Shown one piece after another: positions 9,560 through 27,065 of a stretch of DNA of 36,369 nucleotides (position 1 is its first letter; each line of letters begins with the position of its first letter). Made by a program: the position numbers and the translations under genes. This DNA comes from a virus: IMG/VR virus record IMGVR_UViG_3300028840_002037, positions 1-36,369 of that record. One strand, given 5' to 3'. Under the pieces are notes generated by a model. It was given only the letters and a program-made list of their open reading frames with translations, did no database searches and was not told the origin of the DNA.

Positions 9560-11014
9560 TTACAAATCTCCTGCTACATAGATATTGTTGCAATTTGTCA
9601 CGTGAATATCATACAGCGCTCCGGTTCCGGATGGGAGAGATTGGGTTATCCAACTCCACCCACCGTTGATCGTGCGGAATAAACTTCCAGTAGCACCACC
9701 GGTAGAGATATGCGAGATATAACCAACATATTCGTTGCAGAATTGAATCGACTGGATCTCGCCTGTTCCAGAACCAGGATAAGATCGCTCAAACCAAGAA
9801 TCACCTCCATCATTCGAGAAATAGAGATTCCCAGAATCGTATCCAATCCAGATGCGATTGCGATCAAACGCAAACACCGCTTGTGCAATGCTCAAATTCT
9901 CTGCAGCTGGACCCGTTAGGGCGCTCCAATTCTCACCATCGGTTGTGCGCAGGATCGCGTTATTATCGCCCACCGCAAAACCAACCTTATCATCCACGAA
10001 ATACACCGAATGCAAATTTTGAGTAGTGGTTGCTCCGCTTTCTTGTGCTGTCCAGGTAATACCTGCATCCTTCGAGAAATAGATATAACCACCGGTTGTA
10101 ACAAGCCAGATATTTGATCCATTCCATGCAAAGAGCGGTTGTCCGGTTCCAATTGCATATTGACCATTCACCGCTCCCACATTCACATTCGTAAACGTTG
10201 CTCCGCGATCATCTGAATACGCAATCTCGGCGGGATTCAATCCATCCAGAGTTCCACGCGTCACAATTACACGATACGAATTTTTCGCGATTTGAACATC
10301 AACCACGCCAGAAACATCCTCGTGAGATTGGAATGGATTTGTTGCAGTTGGGAACCAGACCAGACCCCCATCATCTGTGTAATACAGATTCGTGGGAGAT
10401 CCAATCAATCCGGTAACTCCAAGATACCCATCTTGGTTTGCAGAATGCACATTCCCGCATTGACCATAACATTTTCTTGAACCAGAGAATGCTACTGACA
10501 ATCCGGTTTGTCCAGCCACACTAATGATATTCTGAGATCCGGTTGAAAGCGGGAACAATCGGTGCATCAACTTAGCAGATACATCAAACGACTGCATTGA
10601 TCGATCTTGATCGTCCGCTGACATAATCACCATTCCGGACAAGGATTCGCTCGTCACGATTGCCTTATCCAGAATGAAAGCACGATCCCAATTATCGAAT
10701 ACATCCTGACGACCACATAGCACCTGATTGATATAAATCGGCATTGGGCAATTGACTGATTCCAGCCAATCAGCTGCAGATTTTATAACTGATTCAATCG
10801 TTGTTGAAACAGGGCCAGGGCCACCAGACGCATAGATATCTAGTGGAATGAAGTTGTTAGGATGCTCCACATCAGGAATGAATACCAAAGTAGCGTCCCC
10901 TCTGGGGCGCTCAATATCTCCCAATGCGTGACAACCCAGAAAATAAGGCTGCGAGTTGGGGCCATCTGGTTGAACCCAGATAGCACCCGCACCCGCCAAA
11001 AAGCTCTTAGCCAT
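9560..11014 (-). CDS. Tail tube-like protein with C-terminal Asp-box beta-propeller (second copy)
   Basis: This 484-residue protein is a paralogue of the next gene upstream. The ATG at 11014 is preferred because AGGAGG lies seven bases before it and it then aligns with the paralogue (AKSFLAGAGAIWVQPDG against SDNFLAGEGAIFVQPDG). Residues 1-165 are the conserved part, taken to be the tail tube domain. A short cysteine-containing joint (KCYGQCG) leads into about 290 residues of repeats with Asp-box motifs: YTDDGGLVW, YSDDRGATF, FSKDAGITW, RTTDGENW, FSNDGGDSW, RTINGGWSW. Such repeats form beta-propellers (BNR/sortilin/Ycf48-like), often sugar binding. Position before the chaperone genes supports the tail tube call. 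One copy could be the main tube and the other a minor form. Confidence 0.75.
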   Translation of the reverse strand: MAKSFLAGAGAIWVQPDGPNSQPYFLGCHALGDIERPRGDATLVFIPDVEHPNNFIPLDIYASGGPGPVSTTIESVIKSAADWLESVNCPMPIYINQVLCGRQDVFDNWDRAFILDKAIVTSESLSGMVIMSADDQDRSMQSFDVSAKLMHRLFPLSTGSQNIISVAGQTGLSVAFSGSRKCYGQCGNVHSANQDGYLGVTGLIGSPTNLYYTDDGGLVWFPTATNPFQSHEDVSGVVDVQIAKNSYRVIVTRGTLDGLNPAEIAYSDDRGATFTNVNVGAVNGQYAIGTGQPLFAWNGSNIWLVTTGGYIYFSKDAGITWTAQESGATTTQNLHSVYFVDDKVGFAVGDNNAILRTTDGENWSALTGPAAENLSIAQAVFAFDRNRIWIGYDSGNLYFSNDGGDSWFERSYPGSGTGEIQSIQFCNEYVGYISHISTGGATGSLFRTINGGWSWITQSLPSGTGALYDIHVTNCNNIYVAGDL

Positions 11015-11041
11015 TGTTATGCCTCCTAGTGGCACGAATGA

Positions 11042-12499
11042 CTAATTCGATGCCTTAATAATCATTCCGGTAGCAGCATCAACTTCGCCAACGCCAAACA
11101 GTTCATTCTCACCACACAATACAAGCTGATTCAATCCGCTGTTAGCGGTGATCGTGATTGTTTGCCATGTATAGCCACCGTCAATTGTGCGCAGGATTGC
11201 ATCACTTGAACTGGTGCCAATCAAGAAACCATAAAGTTCGTTGATGAATCTAACATCAAGAACACTACCCGCTGCTCCTGCAGGATATGTCCGCTGTGCC
11301 CAGGTTGTCCCTGCATCATTTGTGTAATACAGTTCTCCTGCATCGTCACCAACCCAAATACGATTGCGGTCAATCATCCAAACGGATACCAATCCGTTCC
11401 CGCCACCGGTAGCAGTAACCGTATCCCAGGTATCGCCACCATCGATGGTTCGAATGATCGTGTCCGTATCGCCAACTGCGAAACCATTATTTGCATCGAT
11501 GAAATGCACACCGTACAAATCGTTCGCAGTTACGGTTCCAGCATCCTGCAGCGTCCAGGTTGCGCCACCATCGGACGAATACCCAATGTTGCCACCTTCC
11601 AGAACAGCCCAAATATTGCTAGGATCGTAAGCGAATAGAGCGCGGAATCCCACAGCACCCACGTTGTTTGCAGTAGCAATGTCCGCGTTTGTCCAGGTTG
11701 CGCCGTTATCATCCGAATACGCCACCTCTGCATTATCGGCAACATCAGCATCCCGAATACATAGAATACGAGTTATATTCTTGTCAACAGGGAAACAAAC
11801 AATGCTCATAATGTTCTCGTCTGCAGCGAAAGGATCAGCAGCAGTAGCAGCAAAGTTTGCTCCATGATCTGTTGAGCGCAGAACATTCGCGGTCAACCCG
11901 CCAGCTGCCTCGCATCCAATCACCAGAACATCGCAGAAATCACTCGAATCTCCGCAATCGCCAGAACAAGCAGGATCAGAGCAACTCGCAATACAGTTGA
12001 GCGCTTGCGATTCGGTGGTTGCTTTTCGCTGCCCCACCATCTCAAACCCTTTAAACATCGCCTCAGATGCCATCGAGAAGGTACTGAGAACTTCATCCTG
12101 AGAATCAGGGGTACGCGCGGCCAGATTTGCAATTGATTCGCTCGTAATATATGTTGCGGGGAGCGAATAAGCGCGCTCGAAAACAAAGGTGTCTTTTCGT
12201 CCACATTTGTTCATGAGTACATGAACCGGAACTGGACACGATACCTTTTCAAGCCAATCCGCTGTGCGCCCAACTTTCATCTCGATATCGAAAGTTACGG
12301 GGCCAGGGGCAGCTTGTGAAGAGTTGTCTACCACAAATTTGTTTGGGGCAGATGGATCAGGGCAATAATAGAGCGTGACATCACCTTTGGGAACATCAAT
12401 CCCCAATAACTGATGACAGCCCAAATAGCGGGGCTGTGTATTCGCTCCATCCGGTTGAACAAAAATTGCGCCTTCACCTGCTAAGAAATTATCACTCAT
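11042..12499 (-). CDS. Tail tube-like protein with C-terminal Asp-box beta-propeller (first copy)
   Basis: The 485-residue product begins SDNFLAGEGAIFVQPDG and has the same two-part build as its neighbour. Residues 1-170 are the probable tube domain, a cysteine-rich joint (CIASCSDPACSGDCGDSSDFC, residues about 169-189) follows, then six Asp-box repeats: RSTDHGANF, YSDDNGATW, YSSDGGATW, RTIDGGDTW, YTNDAGTTW, RTIDGGYTW. Each is followed by a hydrophobic strand (for example LYGVHFIDANNGFAVGD), as in Ycf48- or sortilin-type propellers. The clustered cysteines may brace the link. It follows the gp10-like completion gene, the usual place of the major tail protein. Tail tube proteins with small C-terminal Ig-like domains are known; a full propeller is unusual. 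The domain split is read by eye. Confidence 0.75.
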   Translation of the reverse strand: MSDNFLAGEGAIFVQPDGANTQPRYLGCHQLLGIDVPKGDVTLYYCPDPSAPNKFVVDNSSQAAPGPVTFDIEMKVGRTADWLEKVSCPVPVHVLMNKCGRKDTFVFERAYSLPATYITSESIANLAARTPDSQDEVLSTFSMASEAMFKGFEMVGQRKATTESQALNCIASCSDPACSGDCGDSSDFCDVLVIGCEAAGGLTANVLRSTDHGANFAATAADPFAADENIMSIVCFPVDKNITRILCIRDADVADNAEVAYSDDNGATWTNADIATANNVGAVGFRALFAYDPSNIWAVLEGGNIGYSSDGGATWTLQDAGTVTANDLYGVHFIDANNGFAVGDTDTIIRTIDGGDTWDTVTATGGGNGLVSVWMIDRNRIWVGDDAGELYYTNDAGTTWAQRTYPAGAAGSVLDVRFINELYGFLIGTSSSDAILRTIDGGYTWQTITITANSGLNQLVLCGENELFGVGEVDAATGMIIKASN

Positions 12500-13018: not shown

Positions 13019-13561
13019 TTAATCCTCGCTCGCTAAAATAGAAAAATCTTTAATGTCAAATTGCTCTCCTGCAAATAAGCCAATCAGAGCGCGCACAATT
13101 TGAGCGTATGTCCAGGTTCCTGGAAGCGTTGGGTATCCATGATTTTCTAACCACGTATTGATTCTGCTAACGTTTTGTGTGCTAATGCGCACCTTCCAGC
13201 GCAAATCACCGTCCTCGGTATTCTGGATTGTTACCAAAGGAATGAGATCATCGCCGGCCTGCTCTGCTATCGTTGCCAATCTCGCCGTAGAACTTGTCAT
13301 TAGCAAACAGAACCAATTTCCTAATCTTCCAATTTGAGCGTATCCACCAGAGCGCTTTTCTACTTCCAATTCGTAGACTTCTCCCCATCCGATAAAAACG
13401 GTCTGCGTTTCTCCGGTGGGTTCCCCGTTCTCGTCCAGGATGGGGCGCTCTTCGTAGATGGGGTCACGCATGGGAACCGTAACAATCTCTCCCGTATCGT
13501 AATCCAGCGCATCCACAGCTGCTTGTGCAATCGATTTGTTAATCAGTACATAAGCTAACAT
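13019..13561 (-). CDS. Unknown protein, possible head-tail joining component
   Basis: I do not recognise this 180-residue protein. It is acidic with alternating short strands and helices; an insertion (EERPILDENGEPTGETQTV) near residue 38 looks like a disordered loop. The C-terminal half ends in a predicted helix (TWTYAQIVRALIGLFAGEQF). It lies between the LamG-like pair and the gp10-like gene, and its ATG overlaps the preceding stop (TAATG) behind a GGAGAG ribosome site, so it is expressed with the neck genes. A neck or tail terminator role is possible from position but not shown by sequence. Confidence 0.55.
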   Translation of the reverse strand: MLAYVLINKSIAQAAVDALDYDTGEIVTVPMRDPIYEERPILDENGEPTGETQTVFIGWGEVYELEVEKRSGGYAQIGRLGNWFCLLMTSSTARLATIAEQAGDDLIPLVTIQNTEDGDLRWKVRISTQNVSRINTWLENHGYPTLPGTWTYAQIVRALIGLFAGEQFDIKDFSILASED

Positions 13562-15477
13562 TAAAAACTCTCCAAGATTTCGTATTCTCCATTTGTGCCT
13601 CGGGCGTAGATGGTGAGATTATCGACAGCAGTATTTATCCCCCCTCCATAAGCACCGTGTCTTGTGGAGCCAACCAAGGAACTATCTACCACGGCAGTTC
13701 CAATCAGTACATCATTGTAATAAAGACGCGCAGTAGCACCCTCCAGTATTGCCCTTAATTCTTGCCCCGCCCCAAATACAGCTGCAGCACTTATTAGATT
13801 AGTGGGTGCACCACCAATGTATTGTCGTAAAACAGCATTGCCCCCATCGTGGAATACTCTTATATAATTAGCATTATCCACATATCTTAAAGCCAACCCA
13901 CATAAAGCGATTTGAGGTTCACAGGTTACAATTACATCCGCAGTTTTGATATCATTAATTGTTATGGCAAGGAATGCTCCACTAAGCGGTTCTGATTCGA
14001 GAAATGAACAATGCAGCGCATTAGAGACAATGTCAAATGAACCAATAGGCTGCTCCCATTGCAGCCCTGCGCCACCGGAACCAATCCCTCCTGCTATCCC
14101 CTCAGCATGACCTAACCCATCGCTCTCGTAGCTTTCATTCAATTTCCACCATGACCATGTTCCAGGCCCAAAAGTGCTGTTGAGCCATGATTCTGTCATG
14201 GTTCCCGCGTCCAGATGAGTATGAATATCTGACATTTGAGCAGGGGTTGCCACTACGCCATAAAGAATAATTGCATCTGAGAGCCAGCCCAAATAAGGCG
14301 CAGAATGTGCAACAAATCTATCACCGATATAACACCTTTGATTTGATAGATTTCCTGCGAATACACCAAGTGCATTTTGAGTCAACCCTTCTTGTGCTCC
14401 ATTGTAAAATGCCTTAAACTCATCTGCCAATTCGGAAACAGTAAGCCCCAATGTCATAGTAGATGTTGTAATAACCGCAGCTTTTACCACTGATTCTGTA
14501 ACACCACCACCCCATCGATTGAATGTAATTGTGTTTGCTCCTGACTTTGAAATACCAATACCATCAGAGAATGCGCCAACACTCAAATTCAACATATAAT
14601 CTACGGACGCGTCTGCCCAATCATTTCTCGCTCTCACAATTGCGGAACATTCCGCACCATCAAATTTATTATTCAAATCTGCAGAGTAGATATCCACAAA
14701 AGAATTTGTGCCATCGAAAAATGCTTTGCGAGCATCTCCGCCGAACCCGACTCTGGTTGGCGTTCCATCATTCACACCACCGTAATCAATCACATCCGGA
14801 ACCGTCCCGAATCCATCGGAGAGCAGGGGAGCAGGGAGCCAGAGTTTTTTGGGAATTGAGATTTCGGAAATATCAGACAGTAAACCGTTAAACGATGCAC
14901 CAGGATATAATGTTACATTTACTCCTGATGATCCAATCCAAGCGAGTTTATAATTAGTGTCACCGTCTTTATAAAAAAACAAAGCACCAGTCGTTCGCAA
15001 AGCATAAACAATACCGTAAGATATATTAGTGGATGCAGTAAAAACTGCGCTTGACGCAGCACCTGCAGCTCCATCATTGATTCTAAAAACTCCACCAGAT
15101 AACCAAAAAGCACATTCATTGATAGCTCCGGCTTGATTTGTATCAAATCCGATCATCCAACTAGATAAAGCGTAAATGTGTTTTGTGATCGCTTTAAAAA
15201 TTACACCAGGGTTTCGAGATATCGAACCGTACCACAATCCAGGATCGCCAACTGCGTTCAATCCATGTACAGATAATCGACCACGCCCCATATCCAACAA
15301 ATTCAGAGTATCCACAACCGTACGCGTTCCAGGCCCAGGTTCTGCAGCGGTTCCGTTGATCGCTCCTGGAAGTCTGGGAGTAAGGAATTCATCACGCAAA
15401 GAATAAACGAGATCCGGTTTTCGATTTCGCATCTGTTGCAGATATTCAGGGGATTTTTTACTGGTCAGAATTCCCAT
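13561..15477 (-). CDS. LamG-like virion surface protein, second tandem copy
   Basis: This 638-residue protein is a paralogue of the next one upstream. Both begin with MG-L-S-KKSPEYLQQ, continue with PRLPGA-NGTAAEPGPGTRTV, share a central block (LWLPAPLLSDGFGTVPDVID), and end with DNLTIYARGTNGEYEILESF. Between these lie beta-sandwich regions of LamG/concanavalin type (AFFDGTNSFVDIYSADLNNK, then GWLSDAIILYGVVATPAQM). A C-terminal sandwich with RYVDNANYIRVFHDGG and GAYGGG follows. The product probably decorates head, neck or tail and binds glycans. Large lectin-like proteins in the neck region are unusual; they normally sit at the tail tip. Its stop shares bases with the next start (TAATG). Confidence 0.7.
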   Translation of the reverse strand: MGILTSKKSPEYLQQMRNRKPDLVYSLRDEFLTPRLPGAINGTAAEPGPGTRTVVDTLNLLDMGRGRLSVHGLNAVGDPGLWYGSISRNPGVIFKAITKHIYALSSWMIGFDTNQAGAINECAFWLSGGVFRINDGAAGAASSAVFTASTNISYGIVYALRTTGALFFYKDGDTNYKLAWIGSSGVNVTLYPGASFNGLLSDISEISIPKKLWLPAPLLSDGFGTVPDVIDYGGVNDGTPTRVGFGGDARKAFFDGTNSFVDIYSADLNNKFDGAECSAIVRARNDWADASVDYMLNLSVGAFSDGIGISKSGANTITFNRWGGGVTESVVKAAVITTSTMTLGLTVSELADEFKAFYNGAQEGLTQNALGVFAGNLSNQRCYIGDRFVAHSAPYLGWLSDAIILYGVVATPAQMSDIHTHLDAGTMTESWLNSTFGPGTWSWWKLNESYESDGLGHAEGIAGGIGSGGAGLQWEQPIGSFDIVSNALHCSFLESEPLSGAFLAITINDIKTADVIVTCEPQIALCGLALRYVDNANYIRVFHDGGNAVLRQYIGGAPTNLISAAAVFGAGQELRAILEGATARLYYNDVLIGTAVVDSSLVGSTRHGAYGGGINTAVDNLTIYARGTNGEYEILESF

Positions 15478-15480
15478 GCT

Positions 15481-17424
15481 TTAAAAACTCTCCAAGATTT
15501 CGTATTCGCCGTTTGTGCCTCGGGCGTAGATGGTGAGATTGTCACATCTAGTTGGAGTTGCAATTGCAGATACTCCATGCTTTGTGCTTTTCAATGTGCT
15601 ATTAATTACCGCTGTTCCAATAAGAACATCTTCGTAATATGCTCTAACGTTTTGTCCATCTACAATCAGACGCAAATTCCCACCAGGAACATAAACTGCA
15701 GCAACACTTAATAATACATTTATAGCACCGCCAACGATCTCGCGAAGAACCACCGTTCCAGCACCGTTGTTATATAACATTACAAGATTGTCTTCATCTA
15801 AATATCTTGCACATGGACCGCAAGCTGCCCATCCATCGCATGTAATTACAACATCCTGCGTTTTGCATTCCGCAACTGCTATCGAAATATTACCCCAACC
15901 AGGATTTTCTATAAGATCACATTCAAATTGATCAGATGAATTAATGTCAAATGCGCCAATAGGCTGCTCCCATTGCAGCCCTGCGCCACCGGAACCGATT
16001 CCTCCTGCTATCCCCTCGGCATGACCCAATCCATCGCTCTGGTAGCTTTCGTTCAATTTCCACCATGACCAATTATTTACGCCGAATTCAGCGTCCAGGA
16101 TTTGCTCGGTAAGAGTTCCCGCGTCCAAATGAGTGTGCATGGTTGCCATTTGTGCGGGGGTTGCTACCACGCCGTAGAGTAGAATCGCATCGGAGAGCCA
16201 GCCATCCCAAACATTGATTGGAGCAGTAGTTCCAGCACCAATAACTACGGCTGACGAAGTTAAATTTCCTGTCCATACACCTGCGTTTACCGCTGGCGAT
16301 GCTGCTATTTCAACGCCATTCTTGTATGCTCTAGCTTGATCGTTTGTATCTGATCCTGTAATGCCAGAAGTAAACCAACCAACTTCGCCAGCATACGAAG
16401 TTTCGTTCATTGTTGCCACAACCCCATTAGCCTCATAAATAAATTGAATACGATTGTTTGCAGCTACTCTGGATATATAGAAACTATTATTTGCATCTAC
16501 AAAAAACCGAATCAAATATCTAGTTGTTCCATCAGTCCAAACAGCCACATCAGAGACTTTGCTTCGCACAATGCACGAAAACTCTTTTCCGTTAAATTTA
16601 TTATTCAAATCTGCAGAGTAGATATCTACAAAAGAGTTCGTGCCATCAAAAAATGCTTTGCGAGCATCCCCGCCGAACCCGACTCTGGTTGGAGTTCCAT
16701 CATTTACACCGCCGTAATCAATCACATCCGGAACCGTTCCGAATCCGTCTGAGAGTAGGGGAGCAGGGAGCCAAAGTTTCTTGGGAATAGAGATTTCGCC
16801 AACATTATACAAAAATGAAGTTACATTTAATCGATTAGAAAGCCCAGGATAATAACTCGAAATATTGCTAGTATTAGAAACGAAACATAATTCCCACTTA
16901 TTATCGTTGTCTTTCACAAACCAAAAATATCCAGCTTGCCTTGATAGCATCGCTAAGTCATAAGACGAATTTATTGTGTATTCATAAAAGTCAGATGACA
17001 AGTTTGTTGCTCCTGCTTCGCCTGGATGAAATGCTCCGAAATAAGGAATGATACAATCATAGAAAACAGATACCGTATTATTGTCCCACCCAATATAACA
17101 AATACCGCCGTTTAGTGTTCGAATAATCACATCCCTGAAAATAAGAATATCACCAACTTCTCTACTCTTGCTGTTGTACCTAATTGCAGGATCACCCAAA
17201 AGAGCAGTTGCAGGTAAAACCGCATATCCATCTGTAATACTCAAAAGATTCCCAGTATCCACTACAGTACGAGTTCCAGGCCCAGGTTCTGCAGCGGTTC
17301 CATTCACCGCTCCTGGTAAGCGCGGGGTTAGAAAAGAATCCCGCAACGCATATGGCGTTTCCGGAACACGATTCCTGATTTGCTGCAGATATTCAGGAGA
17401 TTTTTTGCTACTTAGAACGCCCAT
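15481..17424 (-). CDS. LamG-like virion surface protein, first tandem copy
   Basis: The 647-residue paralogue starts 17 bases inside the preceding membrane-protein gene, after GGAG seven bases before the ATG. It has the same plan: conserved N-terminal 50 residues, a variable stretch (about 50-210), a shared block with SIPKKLWLPAPLLSD, a LamG-like domain with a divergent core (DGTTRYLIRFFVDANNSFYI), the shared GWLSDAILLYGVVATPAQM and SWWKLNESY blocks, and a C-terminal beta-sandwich. Identical or near-identical DNA blocks alternate with strongly diverged ones, suggesting recombination between the copies. A glycan-binding virion protein is the most likely role; the exact location on the particle is unknown. 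Confidence 0.7.
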   Translation of the reverse strand: MGVLSSKKSPEYLQQIRNRVPETPYALRDSFLTPRLPGAVNGTAAEPGPGTRTVVDTGNLLSITDGYAVLPATALLGDPAIRYNSKSREVGDILIFRDVIIRTLNGGICYIGWDNNTVSVFYDCIIPYFGAFHPGEAGATNLSSDFYEYTINSSYDLAMLSRQAGYFWFVKDNDNKWELCFVSNTSNISSYYPGLSNRLNVTSFLYNVGEISIPKKLWLPAPLLSDGFGTVPDVIDYGGVNDGTPTRVGFGGDARKAFFDGTNSFVDIYSADLNNKFNGKEFSCIVRSKVSDVAVWTDGTTRYLIRFFVDANNSFYISRVAANNRIQFIYEANGVVATMNETSYAGEVGWFTSGITGSDTNDQARAYKNGVEIAASPAVNAGVWTGNLTSSAVVIGAGTTAPINVWDGWLSDAILLYGVVATPAQMATMHTHLDAGTLTEQILDAEFGVNNWSWWKLNESYQSDGLGHAEGIAGGIGSGGAGLQWEQPIGAFDINSSDQFECDLIENPGWGNISIAVAECKTQDVVITCDGWAACGPCARYLDEDNLVMLYNNGAGTVVLREIVGGAINVLLSVAAVYVPGGNLRLIVDGQNVRAYYEDVLIGTAVINSTLKSTKHGVSAIATPTRCDNLTIYARGTNGEYEILESF

Positions 17425-18680: not shown

Positions 18681-18698
18681 TCGGGTACGCTCCCTGCA

Positions 18699-18754
18699 GC
18701 GCCCAGATCAAATCTAAGGCGATTCTAAGTCGTATTTGATAGATAATATAGCAT
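18699..18754. promoter_or_regulatory. Shared regulatory-type element, second site
   Basis: The gap before the connector gene contains GCGCCCAGAT-N4-TCTAAGGCGATT (18699-18724), which also occurs with the same spacing at 25916-25941. On the minus strand the same site reads ATGCTATATT (18745-18754), TATCAA and then AGAATCGCCTTAGATT (18711-18726), a match to the right arm of the 25.95-kb element (16 bases identical). Being repeated only in two gaps, each in front of a block of structural genes, it looks like a binding site for a phage regulator, or a recombination or mobile-element relic. No clear -35 was found here. Confidence 0.55.
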
Positions 18755-25806: not shown

Positions 25807-25840
25807 AAAAAAAAGACCGCGAACAGAATTGTTCACGGCC
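25807..25840 (-). terminator. Intrinsic terminator directly after the late promoter
   Basis: In minus-strand RNA GGCCGUGAACA pairs with UGUUCGCGGUC (11 bp, two G-U) around a four-base loop (stem 25815-25825 and 25830-25840), followed by UCUUUUUUUUG (U-run 25807-25814). No U-run occurs in the opposite direction. It lies about 30 bases downstream of the expected start of transcription and upstream of the first head gene. It would stop most transcripts unless the polymerase is modified or the leader refolds. It would also cut read-through from the upstream genes. Confidence 0.85.
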
Positions 25841-25875
25841 TCCCATTGCGGTATGCCAAATATTCAACTAATCGG

Positions 25876-25905
25876 AGTGTACCAGATAACCGCAATCATT
25901 GTCAA
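25876..25905 (-). promoter_or_regulatory. Strong sigma70-like promoter for head genes
   Basis: A perfect -35 TTGACA (25900-25905) and a TACACT -10 (25876-25881) are 18 bases apart on the minus strand. Expected transcription start is near 25869. The promoter faces the head gene block. The shared DNA element with inverted arms lies immediately upstream (25916-25994), where an activator or repressor could act. Confidence 0.75.
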
Positions 25906-25915
25906 GCAACCAGAA

Positions 25916-25996
25916 GCGCCCAGATTGATTCTAAGGCGATTATACGCTATATGCTATATTCTGCTATATATCAATCACAGAATCGCCTTAGATTGA
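25916..25996. repeat. Inverted TCTAAGGCGATT arms with AT-rich centre
   Basis: Two copies of TCTAAGGCGATT face each other (25930-25941 direct, 25981-25992 inverted) around an AT-rich centre made of several TATAGC or GCTATAT words. The left arm carries GCGCCCAGAT four bases before the core. The whole layout recurs in part at 18.7 kb. Together with the promoter on its flank it looks like an operator or activator region; a small palindromic mobile element is an alternative. No gene is present between 25789 and 25997. Confidence 0.6.
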
Positions 25997-25997
25997 A

Positions 25998-27065
25998 TTA
26001 TGGTGCAAAATCAGCACATTCATTCATCTGATTATAATAGCATCCTACGGGTTTCAATCGATCCCTGCGCATCATGGACGAATAACGCCATCCAGAATCA
26101 TTCAACGTAAACCACAAGAATCCATCCAATCTATTATCCTGCTCCACGATCTTGTAATGCTCAACCTGCAGCTGCTCAACAGCAGGGGAGTTCTCATAGC
26201 AGATGGAGTTCTCATTCAAAGAAGTAATTACGGATGTTTCAGATAGCCAAACAGGTTTATCTTGCGTTAGCGATTTAATCGATTCGATCTTATTACTGAT
26301 ATCGAAATAGCTGTATTCAGAGCAATACGTATACCCATGAAATGAGATCCCATCAAATTCGTGAACCGTATCCAGGAAACCAAGAAAAAACGCTTGCGAT
26401 GGATCAGCCAATTCTCCTGCTAAAATCTGCAAATCAGGATACTCGCTCTTGATCGCAGAATACACAAAATTATAAAACTCTGCATATTCTACTCCGCTTG
26501 CATAATCAGAACCAATGCAACCAAAATAATATTCTGCTCCAATATAATAAACGTCCGGTTCCACCCAGACAGACATATAATCAAGATCGTATCTGCTAAC
26601 CGCTTCTTTTGCTATCGCTGCCCATAAATTCCAGAATTCAGGTAATGGCAGCTTGCAAGTAGGTTGATTCCCGTTCATCCAGGATGGTGAACCCTGAAAC
26701 CCGCCATAGCGCCGATCATCATTCTGGAATATTCCGTCCGGTTTTGTCCAATTTGGTTGGGTGAGTGGTTCCGGAATAATATCCGTAAAATGGATTGTGT
26801 ATTTTAGGATCAATCCATTGTAATTTTCGGCATACTCCGAGAATGGGCGAGAATAAACCTCAACACCTCGAATTGGCTTTTTTTCATAAGGCGACTGTTG
26901 ATCGCTTTTCAACAGTACGGGAATATATATTGTGTGCAATTCGGATACGCTAGGCAGCACAAATCGCACACCATCCTTGTTTATGATAATTGTAGTTATC
27001 GAAAACAATAAAATGAGAAACGAGAAAATTATAATCAAGAGCAAATAACGTCTACCCTTTTGCAT
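25998..27065 (-). CDS. Exported clan GH-A-like glycoside hydrolase
   Basis: This 355-residue protein has one N-terminal membrane segment (residues 7-29) and HTIYIPVLL (44-52), an export-type segment. The rest has the pattern of a (beta/alpha)8 glycosidase of clan GH-A: SVWVEPDV (166-172) with Glu169 as likely acid/base, SFHGYTYC (241-248), and VWLSETS (272-278) with Glu276 as likely nucleophile; DGFLWFTLNDSGW marks a late strand. Substrate cannot be told; GH39- or GH5-like cellulases and hemicellulases share these marks. The ATG lies within the end of the winged-helix gene. A glycosidase in the middle of head genes may strip host capsule or act in the lysogen. No signal cleavage site is obvious. 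Confidence 0.7.
   Translation of the reverse strand: MQKGRRYLLLIIIFSFLILLFSITTIIINKDGVRFVLPSVSELHTIYIPVLLKSDQQSPYEKKPIRGVEVYSRPFSEYAENYNGLILKYTIHFTDIIPEPLTQPNWTKPDGIFQNDDRRYGGFQGSPSWMNGNQPTCKLPLPEFWNLWAAIAKEAVSRYDLDYMSVWVEPDVYYIGAEYYFGCIGSDYASGVEYAEFYNFVYSAIKSEYPDLQILAGELADPSQAFFLGFLDTVHEFDGISFHGYTYCSEYSYFDISNKIESIKSLTQDKPVWLSETSVITSLNENSICYENSPAVEQLQVEHYKIVEQDNRLDGFLWFTLNDSGWRYSSMMRRDRLKPVGCYYNQMNECADFAP

Follow-up and report, generated by a model that had tools for sequence, protein, structure and literature searches.

In phage lambda, Q acts at pR'/tR' (PMC6606751). In Pseudomonas aeruginosa, AlpA acts at PalpB/tB, where an intrinsic terminator stands between a promoter and the first open reading frame (ORF) of the operon, close to the latter (PMC7969949), and the head-tail cluster of the Caulobacter gene transfer agent (GTA) is controlled by antitermination through GafYZ/IHF (PMC11150451). 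An element of the same general kind, a predicted promoter followed by a predicted intrinsic terminator, is described here from the IMG/VR record IMGVR_UViG_3300028840_002037 of an uncultured virus. The whole stretch of 36,369 nucleotides (nt) is called the window, almost all of its genes lie on the minus strand, and the promoter-terminator element before the head genes is called the gate. The gate is rather probably a default-off master switch of the virion operon, opened by antitermination, in a clade of uncultured tailed phages.

As at lambda pR'-tR' with Q, and in phages 21 and 82, the gate combines a strong late promoter, a short leader and a terminator of equal strength with late genes behind it. 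Unlike lambda's, which stands before the lysis genes, it stands before the head block, between packaging/portal and scaffold/capsid genes; no Q homologue and no shared -10-like pause were found (16 contigs in the case of Q), and in the shortest leaders the stem begins about 20-35 nt past the start and the U-tract runs into the ribosome site. The order of promoter and terminator directly before the first ORF is shared with AlpA-PalpB-tB; AlpA, however, requires an element between -35 and -10, a spacer that here differs even between the window and its relative L080, and it serves bacterial lysis genes, whereas the gate serves a virion operon. The GTA differs in that its terminator sits behind the first gene and consists of 150-base-pair (bp) repeats, and in that its promoter depends on GafY and IHF as activators. 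The likeness to P7 of phage Xp10 lies in antitermination without a known loading site, but Xp10 in addition possesses an RNA polymerase of its own, and no P7 homologue was identified here. Some long leaders (L009, L010, L011) resemble the HK022 put RNA in having two hairpins before the terminator, whereas short leaders, that of the window included, cannot accommodate them, and no conserved RNA was found.

The main evidence comes from relatives of the gated block. Two scans of viral contigs with its first gene (the marker gene) returned a near-identical twin of 54 kilobases (kb), uninformative at 99.99% identity, and 17 distant relatives; altogether 31 distinct metaviral loci were compared, each with a marker-gene relative of about 34-52% amino-acid identity. 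Nearly all of the relatives from these scans carried a TTGACA-type promoter, a GC-rich hairpin with a T-run, a Shine-Dalgarno sequence and a start codon. Under fixed criteria the order promoter, terminator, start codon was present in 20 of the 31 marker loci; the remaining 874 genes on those contigs gave 2 cases (Fisher 4e-31), and 1860 dinucleotide shuffles gave none. By eye, nine further marker loci have the arrangement with one weaker element, namely a weak -35 (L008, L013, L014), a weak terminator (L020, L113), an off-consensus promoter (L091, L115) or inserted genes that separate the gate from the marker gene (L006 and L114, the latter also with a weak -35). Regarding a second contig set, fetched via the capsid gene and not via the marker gene, the scanner found promoter and terminator in 11 of 15 marker loci (9 without two near-duplicates), and three further distinct loci lacking the marker gene have both between portal and capsid. 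The sole promoter and sole terminator found in the 9 kb of L082 are those of the gate. By estimate, the frequency of other promoter-terminator pairs in these genomes is roughly that expected from chance spacing.

An earlier note on the window, made from its sequence, had described a head-gene promoter so placed that all its transcripts run into a terminator of its own, and had proposed comparing this order in related phages; the comparison was strongly positive, the order being strict in the 20 loci. The expectation that it would hold in this phage group was borne out and extends to loci with capsid proteins only about 30% identical. The majority of the hairpins have no sequence similarity between loci; it is therefore the order that is conserved and not the letters, which suggests selection on the gate as such. 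No close DNA relatives of the window were found in cultured phages; among 50,697 phage records the marker-gene protein had no relatives and the capsid only distant ones, and two scans of GTDB genomes gave no relatives, hence neither a prophage nor a host. A tyrosine integrase was present in only 1 of 16 contigs, several of which are fragments; the gate may serve lysogeny, timing or both.

The elements in the window are listed in the table. TTGACA-N18-TACACT, followed by a hairpin and eight U, had been placed before the head genes by the earlier note and is exact on the minus strand (25905-25807). The terminator stem has 15 pairs counting A-U pairs with the U-tract (core about 11 bp, loop 4), with a folding free energy (dG) of -20.2 and a U-score of 5.86; it begins 31 nt from the -10, and the folding of the leader RNA has z = -2.7. 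Within the window a promoter match alone is weak evidence, because at the loose level (9/12) the number of matches does not exceed that in shuffles (34 versus 34.3 expected). Strict promoters numbered 1 and 2 on the two strands versus 0.42 expected per strand, and there was 1 strict terminator versus 0.13 expected per strand; none of 60 shuffled windows contained the strict combination. These within-window chance tests carry far less weight than the comparison between loci.

Table. Positions of the gate, of neighbouring genes of the window and of small upstream genes in related contigs (aa, amino acids).
Feature	Position	Strand	Remark
Terminase	34236-32752	minus
Portal	32410-30653	minus	small genes follow
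Helix-turn-helix protein	27300-27052	minus
Gene upstream of the gap	27065-25998	minus	product glycosyl-hydrolase-like in our reading of its sequence
18-nt inverted repeat	25924-25998		39-nt gap, no T-run; at the end of gene 27065-25998
Predicted promoter	25905-25876	minus	TTGACA (25905-25900), 18 nt, TACACT (25881-25876); extended -10, TGG before TACACT
Predicted transcription start, A	25869	minus	7 nt past the -10
Short leader, promoter to hairpin	25869-25845	minus	about 25 nt before the stem; too short for an upstream ORF
Predicted intrinsic terminator	25844-25807	minus	stem-loop 25844-25811 and U8 (25814-25807)
Shine-Dalgarno sequence GGGAG of first downstream gene	25800-25796	minus
Marker gene, first gene of gated block	25788-25312	minus	158 aa, virion-module protein; ATG 22 nt past the stem
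Head/tail block behind the gate	25788-1759	minus	scaffold/protease-like, capsid and tail genes
Major capsid protein	22670-21462	minus
Family U1 members	L007:968-1210, L010:5546-5761, L011:5528-5752, L012:5430-5714, L020:5356-5586, L125:1387-1632, L008:4929-5162, L009
Family U2 members	L117:2732-2953, L113, L140, L143, L145, L013, L018, L141

The consensus over the promoters of 28 relatives was TTGACA-17-(TRTGn)TAYAMT, with a G behind the -10 and an A at +1. The latter was present in 18 of the 28 aligned relatives, and the A near which the earlier note had put the start of transcription in the window agrees with it. By this measure the gate promoters are predicted to be strong host-type sigma70 promoters near consensus. 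The distance from promoter to stem is 27-42 nt in several relatives, and that from stem to start codon is nearly fixed, at 15-26 nt in most loci. The terminators of the relatives (median dG -26.7 kcal/mol, U-score 4.2) equal lambda tR' measured likewise (dG -26.3, U-score 4.74) in stability and U-tract, and lambda pR'-tR' was detected by the same scanner. Regarding the remainder of the operon in the window, no other terminator scoring at least 30 was found in its 24 kb, and its first 23 kb hold no other promoter scoring at least 11.5. Further promoter or terminator matches are likewise few in the other long contigs, and almost all of them lie within genes. The gate is thus the only recognisable strong entry.

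A mechanism of the following kind would fit. Polymerase would start at a strong sigma70-type promoter with an extended -10 directly before the terminator and come to a stop after a short transcript, of about 60 nt in the window and more in some relatives. At a late stage of infection, polymerase would be let past the terminator by a factor that the phage encodes or by a host factor that it has modified, and readthrough from this one promoter would transcribe more than 20 kb of head and tail genes. Promoter use, terminator function in the host and the existence of an antitermination factor are all predictions from sequence. A promoter this close to consensus would be active immediately; the terminator would make the default state off, and something would have to open the gate. 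Transcripts running on from the packaging genes would face this terminator too.

Several observations weigh against a switch opened by antitermination. Members of the Q (PF06530) and Antiterm (PF03589) families were absent at E<=1 in 16 related contigs including the 54-kb twin, and the NusG family (PF02357) was absent from the 16 contigs as well; several of these contigs are fragments, and a diverged Q or unrelated antiterminators would be missed by such a search. A -10-like (sigma-dependent) pause element, at P about 0.03 in the first 16 loci, gave P = 0.88 in an independent set and P = 0.10-0.26 over all loci. The window and L080 differ in promoter spacer and leader. Two of the 31 loci (L016 and L021) lack the arrangement beside the marker gene, some GC-rich relatives (L008, L011, L020) have weak U-tracts, and internal terminators in the operon are so few that a processive factor is not strictly required.

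The sequence AATATT at +6 to +11 of the window was not significant as a pause element. The spacer between -35 and -10 showed no conservation in the 28-promoter set beyond TRTGn; phage-specific Q-type binding sites in it are possible. A PHROG scan of the other genes of the twin and the window gave no antiterminator among the 25 families listed, and an Rfam search gave nothing. The Q-like antitermination suggested by the earlier note is plausible; its recognisable protein parts and a shared pause were not found. Absence of a shared pause or spacer motif slightly favours a polymerase-wide factor (as P7) or phage-specific loading sites over a common lambda-type site. What is left is either a factor that binds polymerase generally, loading sites particular to each phage, or a terminator that leaks and needs no factor. 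That the virion operon of the whole lineage is placed on one constitutive gate, with a factor unrelated to Q, N, put and NusG paralogs and with no fixed loading or pause site, can be put forward only tentatively.

The earlier note had further proposed that a leader sequence ACCGC (25849-25853 on the plus strand) could pair with the 3' arm of the hairpin in a weaker competing structure. The arm is present in the window, but L080 (capsid 76% identical), which has kept promoter and terminator, carries ACCAAAACGC at the ACCGC position; its hairpin has the same 5' arm as the window, paired with a slightly changed 3' arm, and the short leaders of other relatives have no ACCGC-type arm. As a general switch the competing structure was rejected, since it is not kept in this closest informative relative. 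ACCGC is part of one arm of an exact 8-bp inverted repeat, ATTGCGGT/ACCGCAAT (25845-25852 / 25889-25896), which flanks the -10 and the start site of the window and which the earlier note does not mention; it is possibly operator-like, and it is not kept in L080. A different 8-bp inverted repeat, ATGCTCTC/GAGAGCAT, lies around the -10 of L015. A GCGTA/ACCG motif just before the hairpins was picked post hoc, is only mildly enriched and is not claimed.

The rival that survives best, although unlikely, is passive attenuation, in which a leaky terminator behind a strong promoter, without a dedicated factor, would let a fixed few per cent of transcripts through, and virion output would be low at first and rise with the number of genome copies. 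The empty searches for Q, Antiterm and NusG are in its favour, as are the weak U-tracts of some relatives and the lack of another strong terminator in most downstream operons. A weak promoter would, however, have the same effect more cheaply, yet the promoters are near consensus; the terminators match tR' in strength, and in L006 and L014 they stand in tandem behind the promoter.

Somewhat less probable still is a 5' leader in which termination is not intended, the hairpin guarding the 5' end of the mRNA and the U-rich stretch aiding ribosome binding. The model for such a translation-boosting leader is that of T7 gene 10, and the succession of hairpin, U-rich stretch, Shine-Dalgarno sequence and ATG, with the close stem-to-start spacing given above, fits it. 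Against it, the stem directly adjoins the T-run as in true terminators, its strength is like that of tR', and only 18 of the 874 other genes of the same contigs have such a terminator-like element. In L006 and L014 the first terminator is distant from any start codon; their tandem terminators are not explained by a single translation leader and speak for the gate.

There is only a slight chance that the pair is a small-RNA gene, yielding an abundant, trans-acting short RNA while the head genes are read from the upstream packaging operon. The unit would indeed give a discrete RNA of about 60 nt, and L012, L015 and L019 have a back-to-back promoter-terminator unit on the opposite strand with no gene behind it. 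But the leader and hairpin sequences are not conserved among most of the phages, the terminator is closely spaced to the head-gene start codon, and transcripts from upstream would also face the terminator. The divergent units (L012:5850, minus; L015, = G004:9198, minus; L019, = G007:11055, plus), each with a strong promoter, possibly give antisense or small RNA in a subgroup. That promoter and terminator coincide by chance and serve different transcripts, the terminator for example ending the upstream gene, is hardly credible: the loose-level promoter match is no commoner than in shuffles, but the idea is already contradicted by the comparison (20/31 versus 2/874 and 0/1860), and L080 has its own terminator behind the upstream gene, then the promoter, then the terminator.

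With regard to polymerase-wide antitermination of the P7/gp39 type by a small polymerase-binding protein, two families of small proteins were noted that are encoded just upstream of the late promoter in relatives and are absent from the window. Family U1 (about 75 aa) occurs in 8 contigs, in some of which its stop codon lies within or beside the -35 box; the unrelated family U2 (about 73 aa) occupies the same place in 8 other contigs. Neither has a PHROG or PDB match, and models (predicted local distance difference test, pLDDT, 77-79) gave no fold match. As antiterminators they were set aside, given 8 contigs each and their absence from the window, and they are kept only as a lead.

Regarding other features of the window, the marker gene has no Pfam or PHROG match. 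The 18-nt inverted repeat possibly marks the 3' end of gene 27065-25998. One half of it is the first copy of an element of about 35 bp, ATCGCCTTAGA..ATCTGGGCGCT (minus strand), which occurs twice (25910-25944 and 18693-18727; 83% identical), both copies lying directly behind insertion-like genes (27065-25998 and 18949-18770); a gene-associated hairpin or an insertion scar is possible. Large genes are duplicated in tandem as 13561-15477 and 15481-17424, partly 87% identical as DNA, and as 9560-11035 and 11042-12499, and perhaps encode receptor-binding proteins. In a relative, L140:2915-4933, judged by eye, encodes a MuF-like head protein that seems to have an intein-like insertion and a C-terminal ADP-ribosyltransferase-like region.

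The finding of the gate across the 31 distinct loci compared and in capsid lineages down to about 30% identity, far from lambda and lacking its known parts, suggests that virion operons in a diverse uncultured group follow, as a rule, a lambda-like layout of strong start, immediate stop and later override. The gate points to a place for finding new antitermination factors, namely among the proteins common to these phages, and metagenomes can be searched for further such systems by the order of promoter and then terminator.
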